Positions 8,938-21,646 of a stretch of DNA of 30,788 nt are shown here, piece after piece (position 1 is the stretch's first letter; every line of letters begins with the position of its first letter). The notes under the pieces are model-generated. The model had not been told where the DNA came from, searched no databases, and saw nothing but the letters and a program-made list of their open reading frames with translations. This DNA comes from an uncultured Mogibacterium sp. (GTDB lineage Bacteria; Bacillota_A; Clostridia; Peptostreptococcales; Anaerovoracaceae): NCBI RefSeq assembly GCF_938039775.1, contig NZ_CALHTQ010000086.1:1-30788 (forward strand), in the 5' to 3' direction. Made by a program: the position numbers and the translations under genes.

Positions 8938-10725
8938 TTACTGGAATTTTTCCTTGTAGTGATCCCTAATTTCATCCATTATCTGAACGCACTCGAGGGT
9001 TCCTACGTAGTTGCCCTCGGCATCGCGAACTGCCCTATAGCTAACGAGAACCTCATTTTCTCCTTTATTCATCCACACCTCAACCTTATCCTGTGCTCCT
9101 GATTTGAACGAAGATATGATGCTGCGAACCATAGGTTCAATCGTTGGTGGGTGGCAAGTGTAAACTTCTCTATCTAGAGAGCTGATAGGTCTCTTGAAGA
9201 GTTTCTTCTCTCCATTGTCATTGTAGTATCTGTTCATGTCTACATGGTCAACGAACGTCAATTCGAGCGGAATCGTATTGAGCATAGCCTCAAGCTGGTA
9301 TGGAGTCATGTGACCTAATGCAAAGATAACTTCATCATTTCCAGCAGCTCCGTTCTTACCTTCCTTAGCGGCTCTATGCGTATAATCTTCCTTCGACGCC
9401 TTCTCCCACTCTGCTGGCTCTTCCTTAAGCAGGCAGAAATCGTATTCCTTGAGGTCACGACCAACTTCCTCCCACTCCTCATCCTTGAAGAACTGTACGC
9501 AGATTGGGAATAGGATATTTGCCTCTTTGAAGAGCATTTCATCTGCTCTCTTAACTACAGCCTTAGACTTCTCAAGCCACTCTTCATCAGATAATGTTCC
9601 GTCAGTTACACGTCTTAGCTCGTCTCTGATTTCATCGTCAACTGTCCACATTACATCAGATGGCCCAGTTACGTCATATCTGCTCTTGAGTATTGTGTAG
9701 ATGATGTCGCCCTTCTTAGCGTAGTGAATCGATACTGCACGAAGTTTGTTCAGCTCTTCGGTTATAACCGCACGATCCGCACCCTCTTCAAATAGCTTAT
9801 TCACTACTGCGATTTGCTCGGCAATACCTTCGTTCTCAAGAGTCAGCACATTTAGAGGATGTCCTGGTTCTGCGATTAGGGTCTGTGCCTTGACTTCTGC
9901 TTCCTTACGGTCATTGGCACCGTTCATTCTTCTCTGTGCTGCCTCCTTAGATGCCGCCACAGCCTTCTCAGCATTCATGACTTTCTCCTGCTTAGTCGAG
10001 CCGTGGAATAGTGCTGAATGAACGTCACAAAGCTTCTGAACCTCCTGATAAGGAACTCCACTTCTAATTAAATGCTGCTCTGCATTTGCAATTTCAAGAG
10101 CATCAACCTCTTTAAAATTTTCCACGAACTCTGCTCTTACAGTCTCGAGATCCTCACCATTTGTAAGTCTCTCGATATAGCTGCGAAGAAGAACTTCCCT
10201 CTCGCTAGCATTCTTTGGCTTCTTTGAATCTTCCTCTACCGGTTTCCCTTCACCCTGTGCATCAGTTCCTTCCATAAATGGCGGAAGTTTGCTTGGGTCG
10301 ATTCTTCCGTCCGCATCGAGGAAGTTCTTTACAAAATCAGGAACCTTATCCACATCTACAGTGCCATCTTCTCTTATGTAAGCCTTTGCAAAATCAGGGA
10401 TGTTGAGTTTGCTAATATCGAATGCTGGTTTTGCAGGCTCTTCCTTTACTTTAGCAGGCTGAGCCTTCTCCTTCTCCTTCTTCTCTAATTTAGGAACATT
10501 TATAACTTCAAATCCCTTTTCTTCAAATAGGTTCACGATTGCTTCCAAATCAATTCCCTTAATCTGGGAGCCCTTAGGAATTGTCATCACTCTTCCCATT
10601 GTATTTAAAGCAACTGGATTAGAGATATCCTTAAATCCAAGTTCAATCATTATATCGATTACTTCTGGATACTCTGTTGCTAAATCGTGTACGTTTTTCT
10701 TCATGTCTAATACTTTTGCAGCCAT
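8938..10725 (-). CDS. DUF1858-DUF438-hemerythrin-like-PAS protein
   Basis: A 595-residue soluble protein, probably a sensor or repair-type factor; its biochemical role is not known. Domains in order: DUF1858-like (about 1-78); a Lys/Glu/Pro-rich linker (79-100) and three approximate 20-residue repeats ending in P-x-F (102-155); DUF438 (about 175-245); a hemerythrin-like four-helix part (about 285-440) starting with GHPLN at 288; and a PAS domain (about 468-590) with the family-typical R-x-V-x-TCHPP, EVWM and SYRAVRDAEGNYVG stretches. The expected HxxxE ligand pair reads H334-A-K-K-G338, and the usual HDE-I-R reads DDEIR (363-367), so metal binding looks impaired. AAGGAGG precedes the ATG. It stands alone, with its own promoter region and a long hairpin before it. 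Confidence 0.85.
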   Translation of the reverse strand: MAAKVLDMKKNVHDLATEYPEVIDIMIELGFKDISNPVALNTMGRVMTIPKGSQIKGIDLEAIVNLFEEKGFEVINVPKLEKKEKEKAQPAKVKEEPAKPAFDISKLNIPDFAKAYIREDGTVDVDKVPDFVKNFLDADGRIDPSKLPPFMEGTDAQGEGKPVEEDSKKPKNASEREVLLRSYIERLTNGEDLETVRAEFVENFKEVDALEIANAEQHLIRSGVPYQEVQKLCDVHSALFHGSTKQEKVMNAEKAVAASKEAAQRRMNGANDRKEAEVKAQTLIAEPGHPLNVLTLENEGIAEQIAVVNKLFEEGADRAVITEELNKLRAVSIHYAKKGDIIYTILKSRYDVTGPSDVMWTVDDEIRDELRRVTDGTLSDEEWLEKSKAVVKRADEMLFKEANILFPICVQFFKDEEWEEVGRDLKEYDFCLLKEEPAEWEKASKEDYTHRAAKEGKNGAAGNDEVIFALGHMTPYQLEAMLNTIPLELTFVDHVDMNRYYNDNGEKKLFKRPISSLDREVYTCHPPTIEPMVRSIISSFKSGAQDKVEVWMNKGENEVLVSYRAVRDAEGNYVGTLECVQIMDEIRDHYKEKFQ

Positions 10726-10977: not shown

Positions 10978-13239
10978 TTATGCTTTCGCAACGAAAGCGT
11001 TATAAATTGCTCTTATAGCCCTCTGATAATCAGATTCTGATACACCCACCTGCACGCTTATACGTTCAGGAGCATGGTCGATAAATCTAACATTTACGTG
11101 AGCACTTGATAGCGCTTCAAATATCTTCATCGCTACAGAAACCTCTCCAGAGATATTTCTTCCGACTATAGAAATCGCTGCAATACCAGTAGAAATCGTA
11201 ATTTCATCAGCATCTGTTGCAGAACGTAGTCTCTCTGTCAACTCTTCCTCGCAGCATGCTACACTTGCCGAACCTACAATAACAGAGAATGAGTCTAATC
11301 CAAGCTGCTCACTTTCCACAGCGATGTTGAACTCTTCGAGAATGCTCTGAATTCTGTCACGATATTTCGCATCGTCGTTGAGTTTCTCGCGCTCGATAAG
11401 AATGGATGAATAGCCCTTCTTACCGGTTATACTAGAGATTTCTAGAAGGTTCCCATATGAATCAGCATTCTTAACGATAAGAGTACCTGGCTTCTCTGGC
11501 TCTAGTGTGCTCTTGATATTAATCGGAATTCCGCACTGGCTTACAGGTCTAACTGCATCCTCATGCAGCACTTCTGCGCCTCTTAGCGCTAGCTCCCTTA
11601 GTTCCTTATAGATAATTACAGGAACACTAAGTGGCTGCTTAACGATGCGAGGATCTGCCATCAAAAGGCCAGGAACATCTGTCCAGTTCTCATATAGGTC
11701 TGCCTTTGCAGCGGCAGCAACGATTGAGCCTGTGATATCAGAACCTCCTCTTGAGAATGTTACTACTTCTCCTGCTTCATTTGCACCGTAGAAACCAGGG
11801 AATACTATATACTCGTGATTTCTGATTAGATTCTGAATATTAGCTCTTGTAACGTCAGCAAGAAGCTTACCATCGCCATCAAATCTGATTACCTCAGCAG
11901 CATCTATAAAGTCAAATCCAAGCTGCTCAGCCACAAGCTGTGCAGTTATGAATTCGCCCCTGCTGGTCAGGTAGTCTCTGTTACCAGTAGCCTTATATGT
12001 ATCTACAATCTTATCAAAGATTTCATCTATATTAATCTTCGAATCTAGCTCAAGCGCAAGGTTCTTGAATCTCTTTCTCGCTAGCTCCAGCTTGCTGTCA
12101 AAGCTCTCTGGATTATCATGCGCCGAAAGTAAGAGGTCAGTAATCTTAACCTTCTCATCGTCATGAACACCTGGCGCTGAAACCACTACATAGCGACGAA
12201 CCTTGTTCTGGCGCACAATCTCTGCCGCATTTTTGATGCGCTCAGCTGTCGCAAGTGAAGAACCACCAAACTTAGCAACTGTGAGCTCTGACTTATTTCT
12301 AAGTGCAGGTGCAATATCCTCATTCTCGATTAGCTTGATATCGTATGGTGTAGACTGGTATACGAAGTAGTTCAGCCAATTTGAAAATAGCAAGCTGCCG
12401 GAGGATCTCCAGCGAACCACAGGAGTTTTTGAATCGTCGTCGTCAGGGAAGTAATTTACAGGTATTTCTGGATTGATTCCTGCATTTTTATCTCTCACGT
12501 ACTCCTTGAGTAATGTATTCCAGTCGTACTCGGTATGTCCTGTCACAAATATCTGCCTATCGTTGTCAGATTTAACGCAGAACACACCACCTTCCTCAGA
12601 TGTGGAAAGCAAGGTAATTCCTGGAGTCTTCTCTATATCCTCTTCGTTCACAGTAGTATTTCTAGACTGCGGCACATAAAACTCGTCGTCAAAACCTCGG
12701 AAAAGCATACTGCGCTTAGTTTTGAGAGTATGCTTAAACACTCCGGAAAGTTTCTTAGGCAGCTTCTTCTTATCTATACCGTAGTGATAATAGAGGCCTG
12801 CCTGCGCACCCCAGCAGATATGAAAAGTGCTGTGAACGTGAGTCTTGGACCACTCCATGATTTCACATAGCTCTTCCCAGTAATCAACCTCTTCAAACTC
12901 GAGAAGCTCAATCGGAGCTCCCGTGATAATCATTCCGTCATAATACTCGTTCTTAATATCATTAAACGTCTTGTAGAATGCCAGCATGTGCTCTTGAGAT
13001 GTAACGTGAGGCTTATGAGTTGCCGTCTGTAACAATTCAAGCTCGACCTGGAGAGGCGTGTTACTGAGCATACGTGTAATCTGTGTCTCTGTGTCAATCT
13101 TTGTGGGCATCAGATTGAGGAGAAGTATGTGAAGCGGACGCATATCCTGCGTCATAGCACGTGTATCCGTCATTACGAATACATTTTCATTAGTAAGCGT
13201 CTCTATCGCCGGCAAATTATTTGGTACTTTAATTGGCAT
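10978..13239 (-). CDS. Fusion: MetA-type homoserine O-acyltransferase + aspartate kinase
   Basis: A 753-residue protein joining two enzymes of the aspartate pathway. Residues 1-305 are a full MetA domain: nucleophile Cys142 (HICWGAQAG), His235 and Glu237 (TGHTEYD), and Glu111 in TGAPIELLEFE. In characterised MetA enzymes Glu111 goes with acetyl-CoA and Gly111 with succinyl-CoA, so O-acetylhomoserine is the likely product. Residues about 318-753 are an aspartokinase: KFGGSS at 323-328, a SRGGSD segment and two C-terminal ACT-type regions (about 600-750) that normally bind lysine or threonine. No stop or frameshift separates the halves and the linker is only about 15 residues. It is the last gene of the operon, 24 nt after prmA, with AGGAG before the ATG. 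No homoserine dehydrogenase or aspartate-semialdehyde dehydrogenase is nearby. Confidence 0.92.
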   Translation of the reverse strand: MPIKVPNNLPAIETLTNENVFVMTDTRAMTQDMRPLHILLLNLMPTKIDTETQITRMLSNTPLQVELELLQTATHKPHVTSQEHMLAFYKTFNDIKNEYYDGMIITGAPIELLEFEEVDYWEELCEIMEWSKTHVHSTFHICWGAQAGLYYHYGIDKKKLPKKLSGVFKHTLKTKRSMLFRGFDDEFYVPQSRNTTVNEEDIEKTPGITLLSTSEEGGVFCVKSDNDRQIFVTGHTEYDWNTLLKEYVRDKNAGINPEIPVNYFPDDDDSKTPVVRWRSSGSLLFSNWLNYFVYQSTPYDIKLIENEDIAPALRNKSELTVAKFGGSSLATAERIKNAAEIVRQNKVRRYVVVSAPGVHDDEKVKITDLLLSAHDNPESFDSKLELARKRFKNLALELDSKINIDEIFDKIVDTYKATGNRDYLTSRGEFITAQLVAEQLGFDFIDAAEVIRFDGDGKLLADVTRANIQNLIRNHEYIVFPGFYGANEAGEVVTFSRGGSDITGSIVAAAAKADLYENWTDVPGLLMADPRIVKQPLSVPVIIYKELRELALRGAEVLHEDAVRPVSQCGIPINIKSTLEPEKPGTLIVKNADSYGNLLEISSITGKKGYSSILIEREKLNDDAKYRDRIQSILEEFNIAVESEQLGLDSFSVIVGSASVACCEEELTERLRSATDADEITISTGIAAISIVGRNISGEVSVAMKIFEALSSAHVNVRFIDHAPERISVQVGVSESDYQRAIRAIYNAFVAKA

Positions 13240-15072: not shown

Positions 15073-17706
15073 CTATCTGTTTTCATCCAGAAATGCTCTA
15101 ATATCCTGTAACACTGATTCAATATCTATTAAAAATTCTCTTGATGACAACCTTAGTGCTCCGTGACCTAGCGACATCTCCTGTACTAGTGCATCTGACG
15201 ATACGACCGTAACACTTTCACGCTTACCAATCTCTTTTGTAAGTTCAGCAATGTATGCATCTGCTGTCTCATTTTCCTTAGTATAAACTATGTCTGTATC
15301 ATTAATTGTATATTTTCTGCCGAAACTATACGGCACACGATATGCGTCAAAAACTATCGTCATCTTACAGCCGAGATAACCGCGGTAATTCGCAAGTATA
15401 TTAACGAGGTAATCTCTCGCCGCCCCTATATCAGCCTTCGAAAGTGCCTTCATATGCTCATCAGCATTTATCAAATTGTATCCGTCTATCACGAAATGCG
15501 AATCTGGAGTTGCTACTCTCTCTAGTCTATGTAGCGACCGTTTCTGTTTATCCATAGCGCGGTATTCTGCCTCGGAAGGTTTTTCCTTACGCTTTGTAGC
15601 TTTGTCACGCGATATGCTTCCGTATGTTTTCTCAAATATAGCTAGAAGTTCAGCATCACTTGCCAGCTTGCGACCAGCCACCATCGTCTCAGCCCTTGCC
15701 GAACTACTTTCAGTGTTCGATTTATCACCTGACTCAAGCACATACGGAAGATGCATGTAATTCTGCACCTCATCCCATTTGACAGTTTTACCTGATCCGT
15801 GATGACAGAAGATAGAGTCTCCAGTTTCGACTTCATCTTTGTCTGTATCATAAACAGAATCTTCAATAACTTCCTCTTCATTGTGACAGAAGTCATATCC
15901 GATGAGCATACAGCTAATACGACCTCGTCCTCCAGTGTATGATGTAAGCTTTCTCTGATAGTCAAGGAGCAATGCTGCCGGAGCCTTTCCATTAAGAATC
16001 GACATGTCTCCATCTACTTTCGGTTCGTCAAACGTCCCTGAGCCATTCTTAATATCTGTCATAGCCATACCGATATTTGCACTTGGAAGGTTTATCTCGA
16101 AGCTGAACCAAGGCTCGAGTATGCGGCATCTAGCCCGCATAAGTCCATTTCTAACGGCTCTGTATGTTGCTTGTCTAAAATCTCCACCTTCTGTGTGCTT
16201 CTCATGCGCCTTTCCAGCGGCGAGTGTGATGTGTACATCAGTTAGAGGTGCTCCTATCAGCACACCGCGAAACATTCTCTCATCAAGATGCGAAAGAATT
16301 AGATTCTGCCAATTTCTTCCGAGAACATCCTCTGGGATTTCGCTATCTGTGACAATTCCACTTCCTCTCTCTCCAGGACTGATAATCAGATGAACCTCTG
16401 CGTAATGTCTCAGCGGTTCGAAGTGTCCCACTCCTTCAACTGGCTCTATCACCGTTTCCTTGTAGATTATACTTCCTGTCTCAAAGCGAACACTGTACCC
16501 GAATCTCCTCATTATCTGCGACTCTAGGATTTCCTGCTGCACTTCTCCCATAAGCCTTATATTCACACCACGAATATTATCCTCTAAATCTATGTGTAGC
16601 TTAGGTTCTTCCTCTTCTAGCACTCTCATATCTGAGATGAACTTGTTTTGATCTACATGATCAGAAGGAACAATTTTATATGTAAGAAACGGCTCGATTA
16701 CACCATTTCTTGCTTCATTCTCTGCCAATGCACCAAGCCCATGTCCTGCTCTCGATGAGCCTATACCAGTAATAGCACAAATGTCGCCTGCAGAAACCGA
16801 GTCTACCATCGAATACTTCTGCCCTGAATATATCCTTATTTGGTTGACCTTCTCATGAACAATTTCACCGTCACTATTTCTTACAGCAATGCTATCCCTC
16901 ACTTTAAGAGTGCCGTTCATAACACGTACAAATGAAAGTCTTTCATCTCTCTGGTCGCGTGCAATTTTATAAACTAGTGCACCCATTCTATCATCTTGGG
17001 TTATTCCATCATGAATCTCATCAAAACCATAAGTATATGTTGAGAGTGCATCCATGAGCCTATCAACACCATCTAAATGAAGTGCAGATCCAAATAGGCA
17101 CGGAAATACCTGACATTCGCATATTGCCTTGCGAACTCCCTCTGTCGGTAACTTGAGCTTTTCCAAAAACTCCTCTGCAAGTTCTGGCGAATAAAAAGTT
17201 ACACCATTTATAAATTCTTCATCGTCCTCACTCATACTAAAATCGACAAATCCCTCTCCAAGTCTGCCTTTGATACGGCTAATCTGCTCTTGTCGATCCG
17301 CAATTGCAAGATCCATCTTATTAACAAATACAAACGTCGGAATATTTCTTGCCCTAAGCAGTCGATACACAGTTTCTGTGTGCCTCTGTGGTCCATCCAC
17401 ACCACTGATAACTAGAAGTGCATAATCTATAACCTCGAGCGCCCTCTCCATCTCTGCCGAAAAATCGTCGTGTCCCGGAGTATCGAGTATAGTAATTTGA
17501 CTCTCCTTCCAGCTTAGCCCAGCTTGTTTTGAAAAAACTGTAATTCCACGGTTTTTTTCAACCTCGTAATTGTCAAAAAACGAGTCTCCCTTGTCGACTC
17601 GTCCTATTTTTCTTATTGTCCCAGCAGAGTACAGCATGGCTTCGCTGAGCGTTGTCTTGCCCGCATCTACGTGAGCCAATATTCCAATTGTCAGCTTTTT
17701 GCTCAT
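15073..17706 (-). CDS. TetM/EF-G-like translational GTPase fused to a YacP/Rae1-like NYN nuclease
   Basis: An 877-residue protein. Residues 1-610 are laid out like ribosome-protection factors of the Tet(M) type: G1 AHVDAGKT (11-18), G2 RGITV (53-57), G3 DTPGH (75-79), G4 NKMD (129-132), then domains II-V, with DFRQATYRAVRNGL (509-522) and a GRGRIS segment (593-598). The loop before DFR reads AGKAHEKHTEGG instead of the SPVST seen in Tet(M), so plain tetracycline resistance is doubtful. After a charged linker (about 610-735), residues 737-877 form an NYN domain: VIDGYN (D741, N744), VFDAYR (D787), KENETADAYI (E811, D816) and VVSSD (D838). Related Rae1/YacP proteins cleave mRNA in the ribosomal A site. 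A ribosome-directed nuclease is therefore inferred. It is 43 nt after cysE. Confidence 0.9.
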   Translation of the reverse strand: MSKKLTIGILAHVDAGKTTLSEAMLYSAGTIRKIGRVDKGDSFFDNYEVEKNRGITVFSKQAGLSWKESQITILDTPGHDDFSAEMERALEVIDYALLVISGVDGPQRHTETVYRLLRARNIPTFVFVNKMDLAIADRQEQISRIKGRLGEGFVDFSMSEDDEEFINGVTFYSPELAEEFLEKLKLPTEGVRKAICECQVFPCLFGSALHLDGVDRLMDALSTYTYGFDEIHDGITQDDRMGALVYKIARDQRDERLSFVRVMNGTLKVRDSIAVRNSDGEIVHEKVNQIRIYSGQKYSMVDSVSAGDICAITGIGSSRAGHGLGALAENEARNGVIEPFLTYKIVPSDHVDQNKFISDMRVLEEEEPKLHIDLEDNIRGVNIRLMGEVQQEILESQIMRRFGYSVRFETGSIIYKETVIEPVEGVGHFEPLRHYAEVHLIISPGERGSGIVTDSEIPEDVLGRNWQNLILSHLDERMFRGVLIGAPLTDVHITLAAGKAHEKHTEGGDFRQATYRAVRNGLMRARCRILEPWFSFEINLPSANIGMAMTDIKNGSGTFDEPKVDGDMSILNGKAPAALLLDYQRKLTSYTGGRGRISCMLIGYDFCHNEEEVIEDSVYDTDKDEVETGDSIFCHHGSGKTVKWDEVQNYMHLPYVLESGDKSNTESSSARAETMVAGRKLASDAELLAIFEKTYGSISRDKATKRKEKPSEAEYRAMDKQKRSLHRLERVATPDSHFVIDGYNLINADEHMKALSKADIGAARDYLVNILANYRGYLGCKMTIVFDAYRVPYSFGRKYTINDTDIVYTKENETADAYIAELTKEIGKRESVTVVSSDALVQEMSLGHGALRLSSREFLIDIESVLQDIRAFLDENR

Positions 17707-17749
17707 GCTTCCTCCTTCTGAAAATTTTTACTTCCTTACAAGACATTAC

Positions 17750-18842: not shown

Positions 18843-19334
18843 CTACAGTTCAGCACCACACTCCATACAGTATGGTGCTTCAGGAGGCACTTCAACTCCA
18901 CACTCTGGACATACTGTAACATTGGATTTATCTACGACATCCATAATTGCTAGCTCTACGCCATCGCGGAGCTTTTCGACAATCCTATTGGCATAACTCG
19001 AAATCTTAAAATTCTGACAGCTAAACCTGACATTGCTTGCCGTCATCTCAAGTAATGCAAATACATCATCGTAATCTGCACCTTTTCTAAATACGAGTGA
19101 TATCGTGTAAGGTGTAGGTTTATTCACTACTAGTGATATGAAGTGACGCTTTTCATAATAAAGCACTGTATAAAGCTGTTCATTGGTGTTGATTCGAGCT
19201 CCATCAATAGGTACCCCCTTGTCGTCTGCGATGACAACGTAATCACCCACAAAGCTAAACGAACTCGCCTTTGATGCTTTCTTATTTACGACAAACATGC
19301 ACTCTCCGGTGCATTCTAGCTTAGTAGCTCCCAC
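18843..19334 (-). CDS. Uncharacterised protein with C-terminal zinc ribbon
   Basis: I do not recognise the main domain. The 163-residue product has no membrane segment or signal peptide. Residues 1-135 have alternating strand-like hydrophobic patterning with two further cysteines near the start (CTGEC) and one near 110. The C terminus is a rubredoxin-like zinc ribbon, CPECG and CMECG separated by PVEVPPEAPY-like residues. It starts at GTG (19332-19334) with GGAGG 5 nt upstream; an overlapping ATG one base earlier is in another frame. It lies between gph-like and cysE genes in the long operon. Confidence 0.7.
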   Translation of the reverse strand: MGATKLECTGECMFVVNKKASKASSFSFVGDYVVIADDKGVPIDGARINTNEQLYTVLYYEKRHFISLVVNKPTPYTISLVFRKGADYDDVFALLEMTASNVRFSCQNFKISSYANRIVEKLRDGVELAIMDVVDKSNVTVCPECGVEVPPEAPYCMECGAEL

Positions 19335-19370: not shown

Positions 19371-20075
19371 CTAGTCTGCAATTGCTTCTACTAACGCGTT
19401 CATATCTGAGCACACTGATTCGGCTCCGATATTTTCTAAAAACTTCCTGCTTCTGAACCCCCAGTCTACACTGATGCAGGCAAGTCCAGCATTATGTGCA
19501 GTTTTAATATCTACCTCTGTATCTCCAATGTATACCGCTTCACCTTGCTCAAGCCCCATGAGCTCAAGCACCTTGAGTGTCGCATCGGGATTAGGTTTTC
19601 TCCTAATTGTATCATCCACTCCCTGTACATATTCAAATACGCCAGGAAAATATCTCTCAGCGAGAATCACTGCTGCCTCATGCATCTTGTTGGAAACCAC
19701 TGCAGTTCTTACTCCTCTCTCTCTAAGAGCATTGATTGCTTCAGTAATTCCTGCAAAAGGCTGTGTCTTCTCATCACAGTGCTCAGGATACCACTCTTCA
19801 AACGAGGCTATTACAGATGCAAGCTCAGACTCATCACCTTCATATGATGACTCTACACCAATGCGGTCTACATCTTCTTCACTATATCCAGCTTCAGTTG
19901 CAAGAGCTCTAGCCATTGCAACCTTGACGCCACTACCAAAGAACCTAGAAGCATCTTTAACACTGTAGTCACACCTATGTCCGTTTACCCTCAGTGCATG
20001 ATTGATACTGTCTTTGAGATCTGTAATCGTATCAAGAATAGTGCCATCCATATCAAATATTGCAGCCTTGTACAT
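19371..20075 (-). CDS. gph: HAD-family phosphatase, phosphoglycolate phosphatase-like
   Basis: A 234-residue cytoplasmic hydrolase of the haloacid dehalogenase superfamily, subclass with an alpha-helical cap. Motif I is DMDGTILDT (residues 8-16, nucleophile Asp8, acid/base Asp10), motif II is VVSNK, motif III is the lysine in RKPNPD, and motif IV is GDTEVD. This arrangement fits phosphoglycolate phosphatase/PpaX-type enzymes, but the true substrate cannot be told from the motifs. Its ATG shares one base with the larC stop codon (TAATG), so the two are translationally coupled. Confidence 0.85.
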   Translation of the reverse strand: MYKAAIFDMDGTILDTITDLKDSINHALRVNGHRCDYSVKDASRFFGSGVKVAMARALATEAGYSEEDVDRIGVESSYEGDESELASVIASFEEWYPEHCDEKTQPFAGITEAINALRERGVRTAVVSNKMHEAAVILAERYFPGVFEYVQGVDDTIRRKPNPDATLKVLELMGLEQGEAVYIGDTEVDIKTAHNAGLACISVDWGFRSRKFLENIGAESVCSDMNALVEAIAD

Positions 20076-21646
20076 TAGTTCCTTATACCTTTCTCAAATG
20101 CAGCCCTAACTGACTTAATGGATACTCCCAGCTCCGACGCAGTCAGTCTAAGGCTCTCATACTCAGGATATGTAAAAGTTTGTCCTGCAGCAGTAGAGAC
20201 TCTCTTCGCCTCAATTGGCCCAAGCTCTGTTTCTACCACGACCTTAGTTCTTGTGAGCTCCTCGCGCTGTACAGGAAAGTATCTAACACCTATCGTTGTA
20301 GTTTCCGCAAAAATAATCTCGCATAGTCTCTCCCTACTCTCGGCTCTACAGATAACTTCGAGCCTATAAGCAGGTCTATTCTTTTTCATAAATATTGGCG
20401 CATAAGATACATCGAGCGCACCAGCATCCATGAGTCTTTCAAGCACGTACCCTAGTTCTTCACCAGTTGAATCATCGATATTAGAGTTTATAACCATGAT
20501 ATCACCTGTTTGAGCTGCATTTCCTACTGACACCTCTTCTCCAAGTATAATCCTTAGTGTGTTCGGACCGCCTATGTTGCGGCTTCCCACTCCAATTCCT
20601 ATTCTGCTTATATTCATCTCAGGCATCAGTCCGTATGACTCTGCAAAAGTCGAGACAATCGCCGCTCCTGTAGGTGTCACGAGTTCAGTTGGTACTTCAA
20701 TCTGCTTAAACCTAACCTGTTCATTTTTGTAAATCGCTGATGTCGCAGGTACTGGAACACTAAGTACTCCGTGAGCACATTTAATCGTACCATATCCATC
20801 GGAAACGACACTAGAAACAACTCGGTCTGGCTTAATATAATCCATAAGTATCGCTACACTGAAGATATCAACAATCGAATCTAGCGCCCCAACCTCATGA
20901 AAATGCACTTCATCAATCGGTTTGCCGTGTACTGTAGCTTCTGCAACTGCAACCTTATGGAACATAGCTTTTGCAAGCTCCTTAGCACCATTTGTTATTC
21001 CGCTATTATCTATTATCTGCTTTATATCACCATAAGTCCTATGAACATGGTGATAGCTGTTGTGTTCATGACCGTGATTGTGGTCATTATGAGTCTGGTC
21101 GTGATCATGATGTACATGCGGATGATGTTTTTCATGATTCTCTTGTGTATGAGACTCATCACTAGCTTCAATAGCGCGATCTACATACTCGCCTCTACAC
21201 TTGCAGTAGCCCTTGAAATTCGGTTTCTCACACTTTCCGCAAAGCTTCTTCTTTTTCTTCTTCTTGAGCTTTTTAGCTAGCTTCTTCTCTTCTTTTGATT
21301 TTTTCTTAGTCTTCTCATCTTCACAATCGGAATAAAATGTGTAACCATGTCCATGGTGATACTCCCCTTCGTGATTATGAAGACCTCCATGTATATAGAG
21401 TCCTCTCCTTGGAATTTCTTCAGGTAGCACATCAACTGGGATATCTGTCCCAGCTTCTAGAACCTCTACATAAGTTCCATCGATTCCGTGTGACTCTCTC
21501 TTTACAATGCTAACATCATATCCTGAAACTCCTAGCTTATTGAGCTCACTTCTCAAATACTGTTCGCCATCCGACACCTCAAGAAGTGCTCCTATAGCCA
21601 TATTCCCGCTGATGCCTTTCGCGCAGTCAAAATAAAGTGTTTTCAT
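20075..21646 (-). CDS. larC: LarC nickel-insertion protein of the nickel-pincer cofactor, with unusual insert
   Basis: LarC inserts nickel into the pyridinium-bisthiocarboxylate cofactor of lactate racemase and related enzymes, using CTP. The 523-residue protein has the family start LYFDCAKGISGNM (residues 4-16), and later HFHEVGALDSIVD (248-260), TPTGAA and GVGSRNIGG-type segments. Lactobacillus LarC is split by a programmed frameshift; here one frame covers both parts. Residues 84-203 are an added region: glycine/histidine-rich, then 11 lysines in a row of 15 (about 121-135), a CGKC-CKC cysteine pair (136-150), and a histidine/asparagine-rich tract (165-202). LarA, LarB and LarE are not in the window. 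GAGG 6 nt before the ATG supports the start, and the larC-gph junction is overlapping. Confidence 0.93.
   Translation of the reverse strand: MKTLYFDCAKGISGNMAIGALLEVSDGEQYLRSELNKLGVSGYDVSIVKRESHGIDGTYVEVLEAGTDIPVDVLPEEIPRRGLYIHGGLHNHEGEYHHGHGYTFYSDCEDEKTKKKSKEEKKLAKKLKKKKKKKLCGKCEKPNFKGYCKCRGEYVDRAIEASDESHTQENHEKHHPHVHHDHDQTHNDHNHGHEHNSYHHVHRTYGDIKQIIDNSGITNGAKELAKAMFHKVAVAEATVHGKPIDEVHFHEVGALDSIVDIFSVAILMDYIKPDRVVSSVVSDGYGTIKCAHGVLSVPVPATSAIYKNEQVRFKQIEVPTELVTPTGAAIVSTFAESYGLMPEMNISRIGIGVGSRNIGGPNTLRIILGEEVSVGNAAQTGDIMVINSNIDDSTGEELGYVLERLMDAGALDVSYAPIFMKKNRPAYRLEVICRAESRERLCEIIFAETTTIGVRYFPVQREELTRTKVVVETELGPIEAKRVSTAAGQTFTYPEYESLRLTASELGVSIKSVRAAFEKGIRN

Follow-up and report, generated by a model that had tools for sequence, protein, structure and literature searches.

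A translational GTPase fused to a Rae1/YacP-type nuclease is a common chromosomal gene of gut-type Clostridia and seems to replace the free nuclease

The nuclease Rae1 (YacP) of Bacillus subtilis cuts mRNA in the ribosomal A site (PMC12320835, PMC6613710). It is a free protein with a C-terminal tail and is encoded in the operon of rlmB (yacO). To our knowledge, it is unclear how nucleases of this type find the right ribosomes. Translation factors resembling EF-G place their domain IV in the A site, and in the Tet ribosomal protection proteins the functional loop at the tip of this domain is SPVST. The two components have been seen in one protein: the survey of Atkinson et al. (2015) describes ten Clostridiales whose Tet proteins bear a YacP-like NYN domain, and it suggests a role in resistance (PMC4342817). 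The domain order and the kind of host given in its passages on these proteins are those found here; these passages speak of acquired resistance and of a possible RNase activity on rRNA or tRNA (PMC4342817), whereas the present analysis describes a subfamily that is widespread, separate from Tet and found in genomes devoid of a free rae1 gene. The architecture is thus already in print, filed under resistance, and what is added here is evidence, drawn from sequence comparison, for a common chromosomal gene that would replace free Rae1. No later treatment and no functional test of the fusion was found in the open-licence literature.

The DNA analysed (the window) comprises 30,788 nucleotides of a contig from an uncultured Mogibacterium sp. 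On its minus strand, which carries all features described here, positions 15073..17706 encode a fusion of a translational GTPase and a Rae1/YacP nuclease of 877 residues, preceded by a Shine-Dalgarno sequence, AAGGAGG, read directly at 17712..17718. A single frame comprises a complete EF-G/Tet-like GTPase (residues 1-610), a C-terminal extension, a linker and a Rae1/YacP NYN domain. The G domain (residues 5-224; 17035..17694) contains the P-loop AHVDAGKT, RGIT, DTPGH with His79, and NKMD, and its key residues are invariant in family alignments of 26 and 64 rows. It is followed by EF-G domains II (residues 243-322; 16741..16980), III (residues 338-408; 16483..16695; below the Pfam cut-off, with the fold supported by the structure model), IV (residues 412-525; 16132..16473) and V (residues 528-610; 15877..16125). 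Within domain IV, the motif GHFEPLRHYAEVH occupies residues 427-439 (16390..16428), and the loop GKAHEKHTEGGDFR, a hallmark of the family that replaces the SPVST of Tet proteins, residues 498-511 (16174..16215). The extension (residues 611-652; 15751..15876) ends in W..V...MH, at or a few residues past which the unfused sister GTPases terminate. The flexible linker (residues 653-735; 15502..15750), mostly of low model confidence, is 83 residues long, which is also the median over the 91 of 113 fused rows that could be parsed (range 66-151), and it includes a conserved helix, SDAELLAIFEKTYG (residues 683-696; 15619..15660). The NYN/PIN-like nuclease domain of the Rae1/YacP type spans residues 736-872 (15091..15501). 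The predicted structure has a pTM of 0.60, and the placement of the nuclease relative to the GTPase in it is unreliable. Just ahead of the nuclease, a linker helix of the pattern ELxxIFxxT[YFP] is found in 63 of the 91 parsed proteins; by eye, SDAELLAIFEKTYG bears a slight likeness to the tail helix of Rae1, EEVLKTFEKWRR, the two being too short for a test.

The joining of two genes by a frameshift or an assembly error, which the sequence-only reading had named as one way in which its interpretation could fail, is ruled out, as the architecture is common to 119 of the 120 homologues listed as the best matches of a protein search that scored at least 7979 candidates, all 119 having an NYN_YacP domain. 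The same reading had suspected that such fusions sit in databases under tetracycline-resistance names, and this is so: those homologues that bear a name are called “translation factor GTPase family protein”, “TetM/TetW/TetO/TetS family” or “ribosomal protection tetracycline resistance protein”.

The GTPase half belongs to the EF-G (EF2) group, having a GTP_EFTU domain complete with its motifs as well as domains II, IV and V. It resembles Tet(M), Tet(O) and Tet(Q) in being an EF-G-like multi-domain GTPase, alignable with them over residues 5-607, and differs from them in the loops at the tip of domain IV, in its branch of the tree, in its distribution, in the C-terminal extension and in the nuclease. 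The best NCBIfam match of the fusion is the Tet protection model (tet_protect, NF012153), with 415.3 bits against a cut-off of 775, that is, missed by 360 bits; the EF-G model (TIGR00484) also stays below its cut-off, with 283.4 against 659.4 bits. An HMM of the GTPase part scored two fused proteins at 983 and 1082 and three unfused sisters at 732-870, as compared with 344-402 for four Tet/Otr types and 332 for one EF-G; over all fetched loci, complete fused proteins scored as low as 509. Two unfused GTPases (L138 and L139, of genomes G139 and G051) lie at about 445-530 bits, intermediate between the fusion family, Tet and EF-G; they have the mixed loops GEDHVMHSNPGDF and GEYHVVHTKAPDF and may represent a further subfamily.

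The domain-IV loop, with the consensus G[KR].H.KHT.GGDFR, and the motif GHFEPLRHYAEVH are common to fused and unfused members and are unlike the corresponding parts of EF-G and Tet. Across 130 family rows (the alignment omitted L081-L084, L096 and L103 as partial or duplicate, L161 as a split frame and L163 as a duplicate), Thr505 and Asp509 are present in 130, His504 in 129 and His501 in 123; the divergent fused rows L140-L142 retain His504-Thr505 and not the GG. SPVST is present in three of four Tet/Otr rows; the window protein has EKHTE at this position. His501 matches a histidine of the single EF-G row and none in the Tet rows, from which no function is drawn. The unfused sister GTPases (of Ligilactobacillus, Paenibacillus, Subdoligranulum and others) share the domain-IV signatures and the extension with its MH and, unlike the fusion, have neither linker nor nuclease. 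Since they also carry the loop, it predates the fusion; marking the whole GTPase subfamily, it is uninformative on the nuclease specifically. Of the earlier argument from the replaced SPVST, the part that holds is that simple drug protection is unlikely, while the loop is not peculiar to the fusion. In a quick GTPase tree, the family forms one clade (support 100), separate from a branch (support 99) of the four Tet-type rows, namely Tet(Q), Tet(O/W/32/O), an Otr(A)-like and a TetB(P)-like protein; the single EF-G row is nearest to the family with support of 89, in a tree that has no inferred root and many rows of odd composition.

The nuclease half is Rae1 both by sequence (E 1.8e-20; NYN_YacP of Pfam at 128 bits against a cut-off of 24.6) and by predicted fold. 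The C-terminal model contains an NYN fold that matches B. subtilis Rae1 (PDB 5mq8, 5mq9), with the catalytic residues shared and about 35% identity in the structural alignment. Residues D741, N744, D787, D816 and D838 are invariant in 113 of 113 fused proteins and in 21 of 21 free YacPs, which, together with the single 877-residue frame, bears out the original proposal: a factor resembling Tet and EF-G is joined to a nuclease of the Rae1 type whose catalytic residues are intact. In B. subtilis as in the carriers of the fusion there is mostly a single YacP per genome; in the fusion, unlike in B. subtilis, the nuclease is tethered to a GTPase, encoded elsewhere in the genome and short-tailed.

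For the comparison of tails, 20 free YacPs were taken from the 59 in the class sample described below; eight more were added later, six of them from the family of G009. The tail of the window protein has 11 residues, whereas those of the free YacPs have at least 25 in 20 of 20; tails of fewer than 25 residues occur in 51 of 113 fused proteins as against 0 of 20 free ones. In the first 20 free YacPs, the tail has a median of about 37 residues and a mean net charge of +4.1, compared with +0.3 in the fused proteins, and its strict basic LEKxRR-type end is found in 18 of these 20 versus 2 of 113 fused rows. With a relaxed motif, the counts are 10 of 113 fused and 24 of 28 free (19 of 20 in the first free set). 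Among the eight added free YacPs, the strict motif is found in none and the relaxed one in five, and the net charge of the tail is -2 to +1 in five; these forms weaken the argument that a basic tail was lost by fusion. The long tail and the rlmB neighbourhood, as defined here from the free sequences, are a trait of the free subgroup and not of the Pfam family. In B. subtilis Rae1, the motif reads FEKWRR, with R166 as the last residue; W164L is the mutant that was crystallised, according to the structure title, and R166P is described among suppressors consistent with loss of Rae1 function (PMC6613710). The tail and its LExxR end thus accompany the free enzymes, while the basic charge was already weak in those free YacPs that the tree places closest to the fused proteins. 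A relaxed need for the tail in the fusion is suggested, and it is possible that the GTPase has taken over the role of the tail.

The architecture search proposed for Clostridia in the sequence-only reading found the fusion in 74 of the 196 genomes of a class sample, along with free YacP in 59, neither in 63 (a category that includes missing data) and both, above the Pfam cut-off, in none; the sampled genomes are related, and these counts are not independent. The frames of free YacPs in this sample have 168-216 residues and all others at least 313. The GTPase lies in a frame of at least 780 residues in 70 of the 74 fused cases (in G071 and G199 only by readthrough of one stop), the other four being broken by contig ends or split frames, with G194 giving no GTPase match. 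Two extra sub-cut-off matches considered as a second YacP in fused genomes (G129 and G183) proved to be Lrp/AsnC regulators, and contig-end fragments in G513 (above the cut-off), G544 and G594 were excluded as second genes. Scored by frame length alone, the family of G009 comprises 65 fused, 6 free and 9 neither among 80 genomes (with G516, where the gene is split over two overlapping frames, and G561, where a contig end interrupts it, scored as fused, and the 260-residue frame beside rlmB in G537 as free), and the family of G001, 40 fused, 0 free and 14 neither among 54. In a second class, that of G205, seeded from a Massilimicrobiota MAG, 20 of 198 genomes have YacP above the cut-off; by frame length, which is at least 615 residues throughout, all 20 are fused and none is free, the GTPase being confirmed in 15 of the 20; the phylum sample for this class has 15 fused and one unfused GTPase among 195. 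The fusion is at least 80% present in 2 of 72,556 plasmid records and 2 of 50,697 phage records. It is thus a real, conserved and widespread gene, common on the chromosomes of many gut-type Clostridia. Its carriers appear to have given up the free Rae1 gene, and the fusion seems to be the replacement. In two lactobacilli, unfused members lie on plasmids: L085, which carries a tetracycline-resistance annotation, and L093, with a truncated frame.

The unfused GTPase was found in 11 genomes of the class sample, six with and five without free YacP. The Rosetta-stone expectation that it would co-occur with free YacP is unsupported, the frequency of free YacP being 6 of 11 as compared with 53 of 111 other genomes without the fusion. 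As the unfused GTPase is found with YacP about as often as without it, the GTPase did not need YacP, and the lack of a tie implies that it already served a separate function before the two were fused.

The free gene has a characteristic place, the cysS-rlmB-yacP-sigH locus, where the name sigH is our assignment, presumed from the gene order of B. subtilis. For free yacP, 28 loci were compared: all six from the family of G009, and 22 from the class sample, which has 59. In 25 of them rlmB is the gene immediately ahead of yacP, in 21 a sigma-factor gene follows, and 17 have cysS. Among the rlmB loci of ten fused genomes, five (L177, L181, L183, L185 and L186) have a sigma-factor gene after rlmB and no yacP match in between, with a gap of about 540 bases in L183; the sigma factor was identified as Sigma70_r2 by Pfam in L177 and by tblastn in the other loci. 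In the remaining five, the rlmB locus is rearranged and no sigma-factor gene was found. In five of the ten fused genomes checked, yacP has thus disappeared from its ancestral place.

The fused gene itself has no such place. rlmB lies inside the fetched stretch in 2 of 112 fused loci and is not among the identified neighbours of the fusion gene in the window; no constant neighbour emerged, the best shared neighbour family occurring in 8 of 107 fused loci. As conserved operon partners, nfo (0 of 112, without a match), cysE (0 of 112) and prmA (1 of 112) were rejected at an E value of 1e-15. As the neighbours in the window rarely recur, local gene order is uninformative. Several of the other minus-strand genes of the window have features of their own. 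A single 753-residue frame at 10978-13239 joins a homoserine O-succinyltransferase (HTS, residues 2-299) to an aspartokinase-like part (AA_kinase, 319-576; ACT, 689-749), combining two steps of the synthesis of aspartate-derived amino acids. The LarC nickel-insertion protein at 20075-21646 (LarC1 and LarC2 models) has a long, histidine-rich and charged insert at roughly residues 90 to 203. A 595-residue protein at 8938-10725 contains DUF1858, DUF438, hemerythrin and PAS domains and has no NCBIfam match, and a 163-residue protein at 18843-19334 has a C-terminal zinc ribbon. The window has no match to a known defence system in PADLOC, no Rfam match and no tRNA gene.

Trees of both halves were built with 40 of the 113 fused rows, the GTPase tree without the truncated L093. 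In the GTPase tree, all 40 fall into one clade (support 99) together with one unfused Ligilactobacillus protein, which suggests one fusion event; the unfused copy nested in this clade, one of 41 rows, is probably the result of a later loss of the nuclease. In the NYN tree with 21 free rows, the fused domains lie on one side of a branch (96/96). With 29 free rows, in a tree whose bootstrap values had not settled, the fused rows need three changes: 33 of them lie near seven of the added free YacPs, which stand beside or within this larger fused group, and the NYN domain of the window lies apart with five others. A tree in which all fused NYN domains are held in one group is worse by 0.3 log units, and the test does not reject it (p-AU 0.505). 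The seven free YacPs (L165-L169, L172 and L173), located in or near the rlmB locus, have the NYN domain and the weakly charged, LExxRL-type tail closest to those of many fused proteins, and adding them disturbs the single fused group of the NYN tree with 21 free rows. One fusion is the simplest reading of both trees; alternatively, the two halves may have been fused more than once, or the nuclease part may have been exchanged after a single fusion.

We regard it as moderately probable that the fusion is a housekeeping ribosome factor, the only Rae1 of the cell, in which the GTPase aids targeting to the ribosome. We infer that its cutting would be GTP-dependent and that its target would be, as for B. 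subtilis Rae1, mRNA on paused ribosomes. The EF-G/Tet-like GTPase would bind at the factor site of the ribosome when the A site is accessible, its histidine-rich domain-IV tip would probe the decoding centre, and the GTPase would hydrolyse GTP and withdraw; the Rae1 nuclease, on its linker of about 80 residues, would cut the mRNA at the A site or next to it. Domain IV and the NYN domain presumably cannot share one A site, and this competition requires a sequential model, in which the nuclease acts ahead of or following the stay of domain IV, or at another place on the mRNA. The GTPase might engage, hydrolyse GTP and vacate the A site for the tethered nuclease to enter, or else the nuclease might cut at the mRNA entry side while domain IV sits in the A site. 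By our estimate, made without computation on the ribosome, the linker seems long enough for either. An elaborated version, which we consider unlikely, is a two-stroke machine whose GTPase senses or clears a stalled A site and whose tethered Rae1, upon GTP hydrolysis, cuts the codon and leaves the ribosome ready for rescue. If it were true, GTP would set the timing of mRNA cutting on the ribosome, a form of control absent from free Rae1, and the unfused sisters would represent just the half that clears.

A different account, rather unlikely in our estimation, is that the GTPase keeps an ancestral ribosome job, such as the clearing of A-site ligands or the splitting of stalled ribosomes, and that the nuclease is merely co-localised, each half acting independently. 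The unfused sisters with the same domain-IV signature, six with and five without YacP, agree with it, as does the long, flexible linker; so does the drop in tail charge, which, being seen in free YacPs as well, need not stem from the fusion. Set against this are the rarity of unfused rows inside the fused GTPase clade (1 of 41) and the maintenance of the fusion over one class and part of another, with the free gene lost and the tail lost in 51 of 113, which together suggest that the nuclease gains from the GTPase.

The suggestion of the 2015 survey was that the protein protects the ribosome from tetracycline, or from some other drug that acts at the A site, and that the nuclease contributes a further means of resistance (PMC4342817). 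It is in line with the TetM/TetW/TetO/TetS names of several records and with the Tet protection model being the best NCBIfam match, but that match reaches 415 bits against a curated cut-off of 775, SPVST is replaced, with His504 and Thr505 in 129 and 130 of 130 rows, and the family forms its own clade (100) with the four Tet/Otr rows on another branch (99) of the quick tree. Moreover, the gene is highly prevalent in two families (65 of 80 and 40 of 54 genomes), it is found in only 2 of 72,556 plasmid records, and a resistance role would not entail loss of the free Rae1 gene; we therefore consider drug protection improbable. About as improbable, in our judgement, is the action of the nuclease on stable RNA, in rRNA or tRNA maturation or decay during ribosome assembly or recycling, rather than on mRNA. 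The survey refers to an earlier suggestion that the YacP-like domain serves in the maturation of rRNA or tRNA, and EF-G-like factors act in recycling too (PMC4342817), but the characterised relative, B. subtilis Rae1, is reported to cut A-site mRNA (PMC12320835, PMC6613710).

The preferred reading, that of a housekeeping factor with a GTPase-targeted Rae1, names a candidate partner for Rae1, and as the free nuclease gene appears to have been given up, the targeting of Rae1 is directly testable in the carriers of the fusion. This very common gut gene often goes under a tetracycline-resistance name; the findings suggest that its product is a core translation factor, and counts of resistance genes would be inflated wherever the name is taken at face value.
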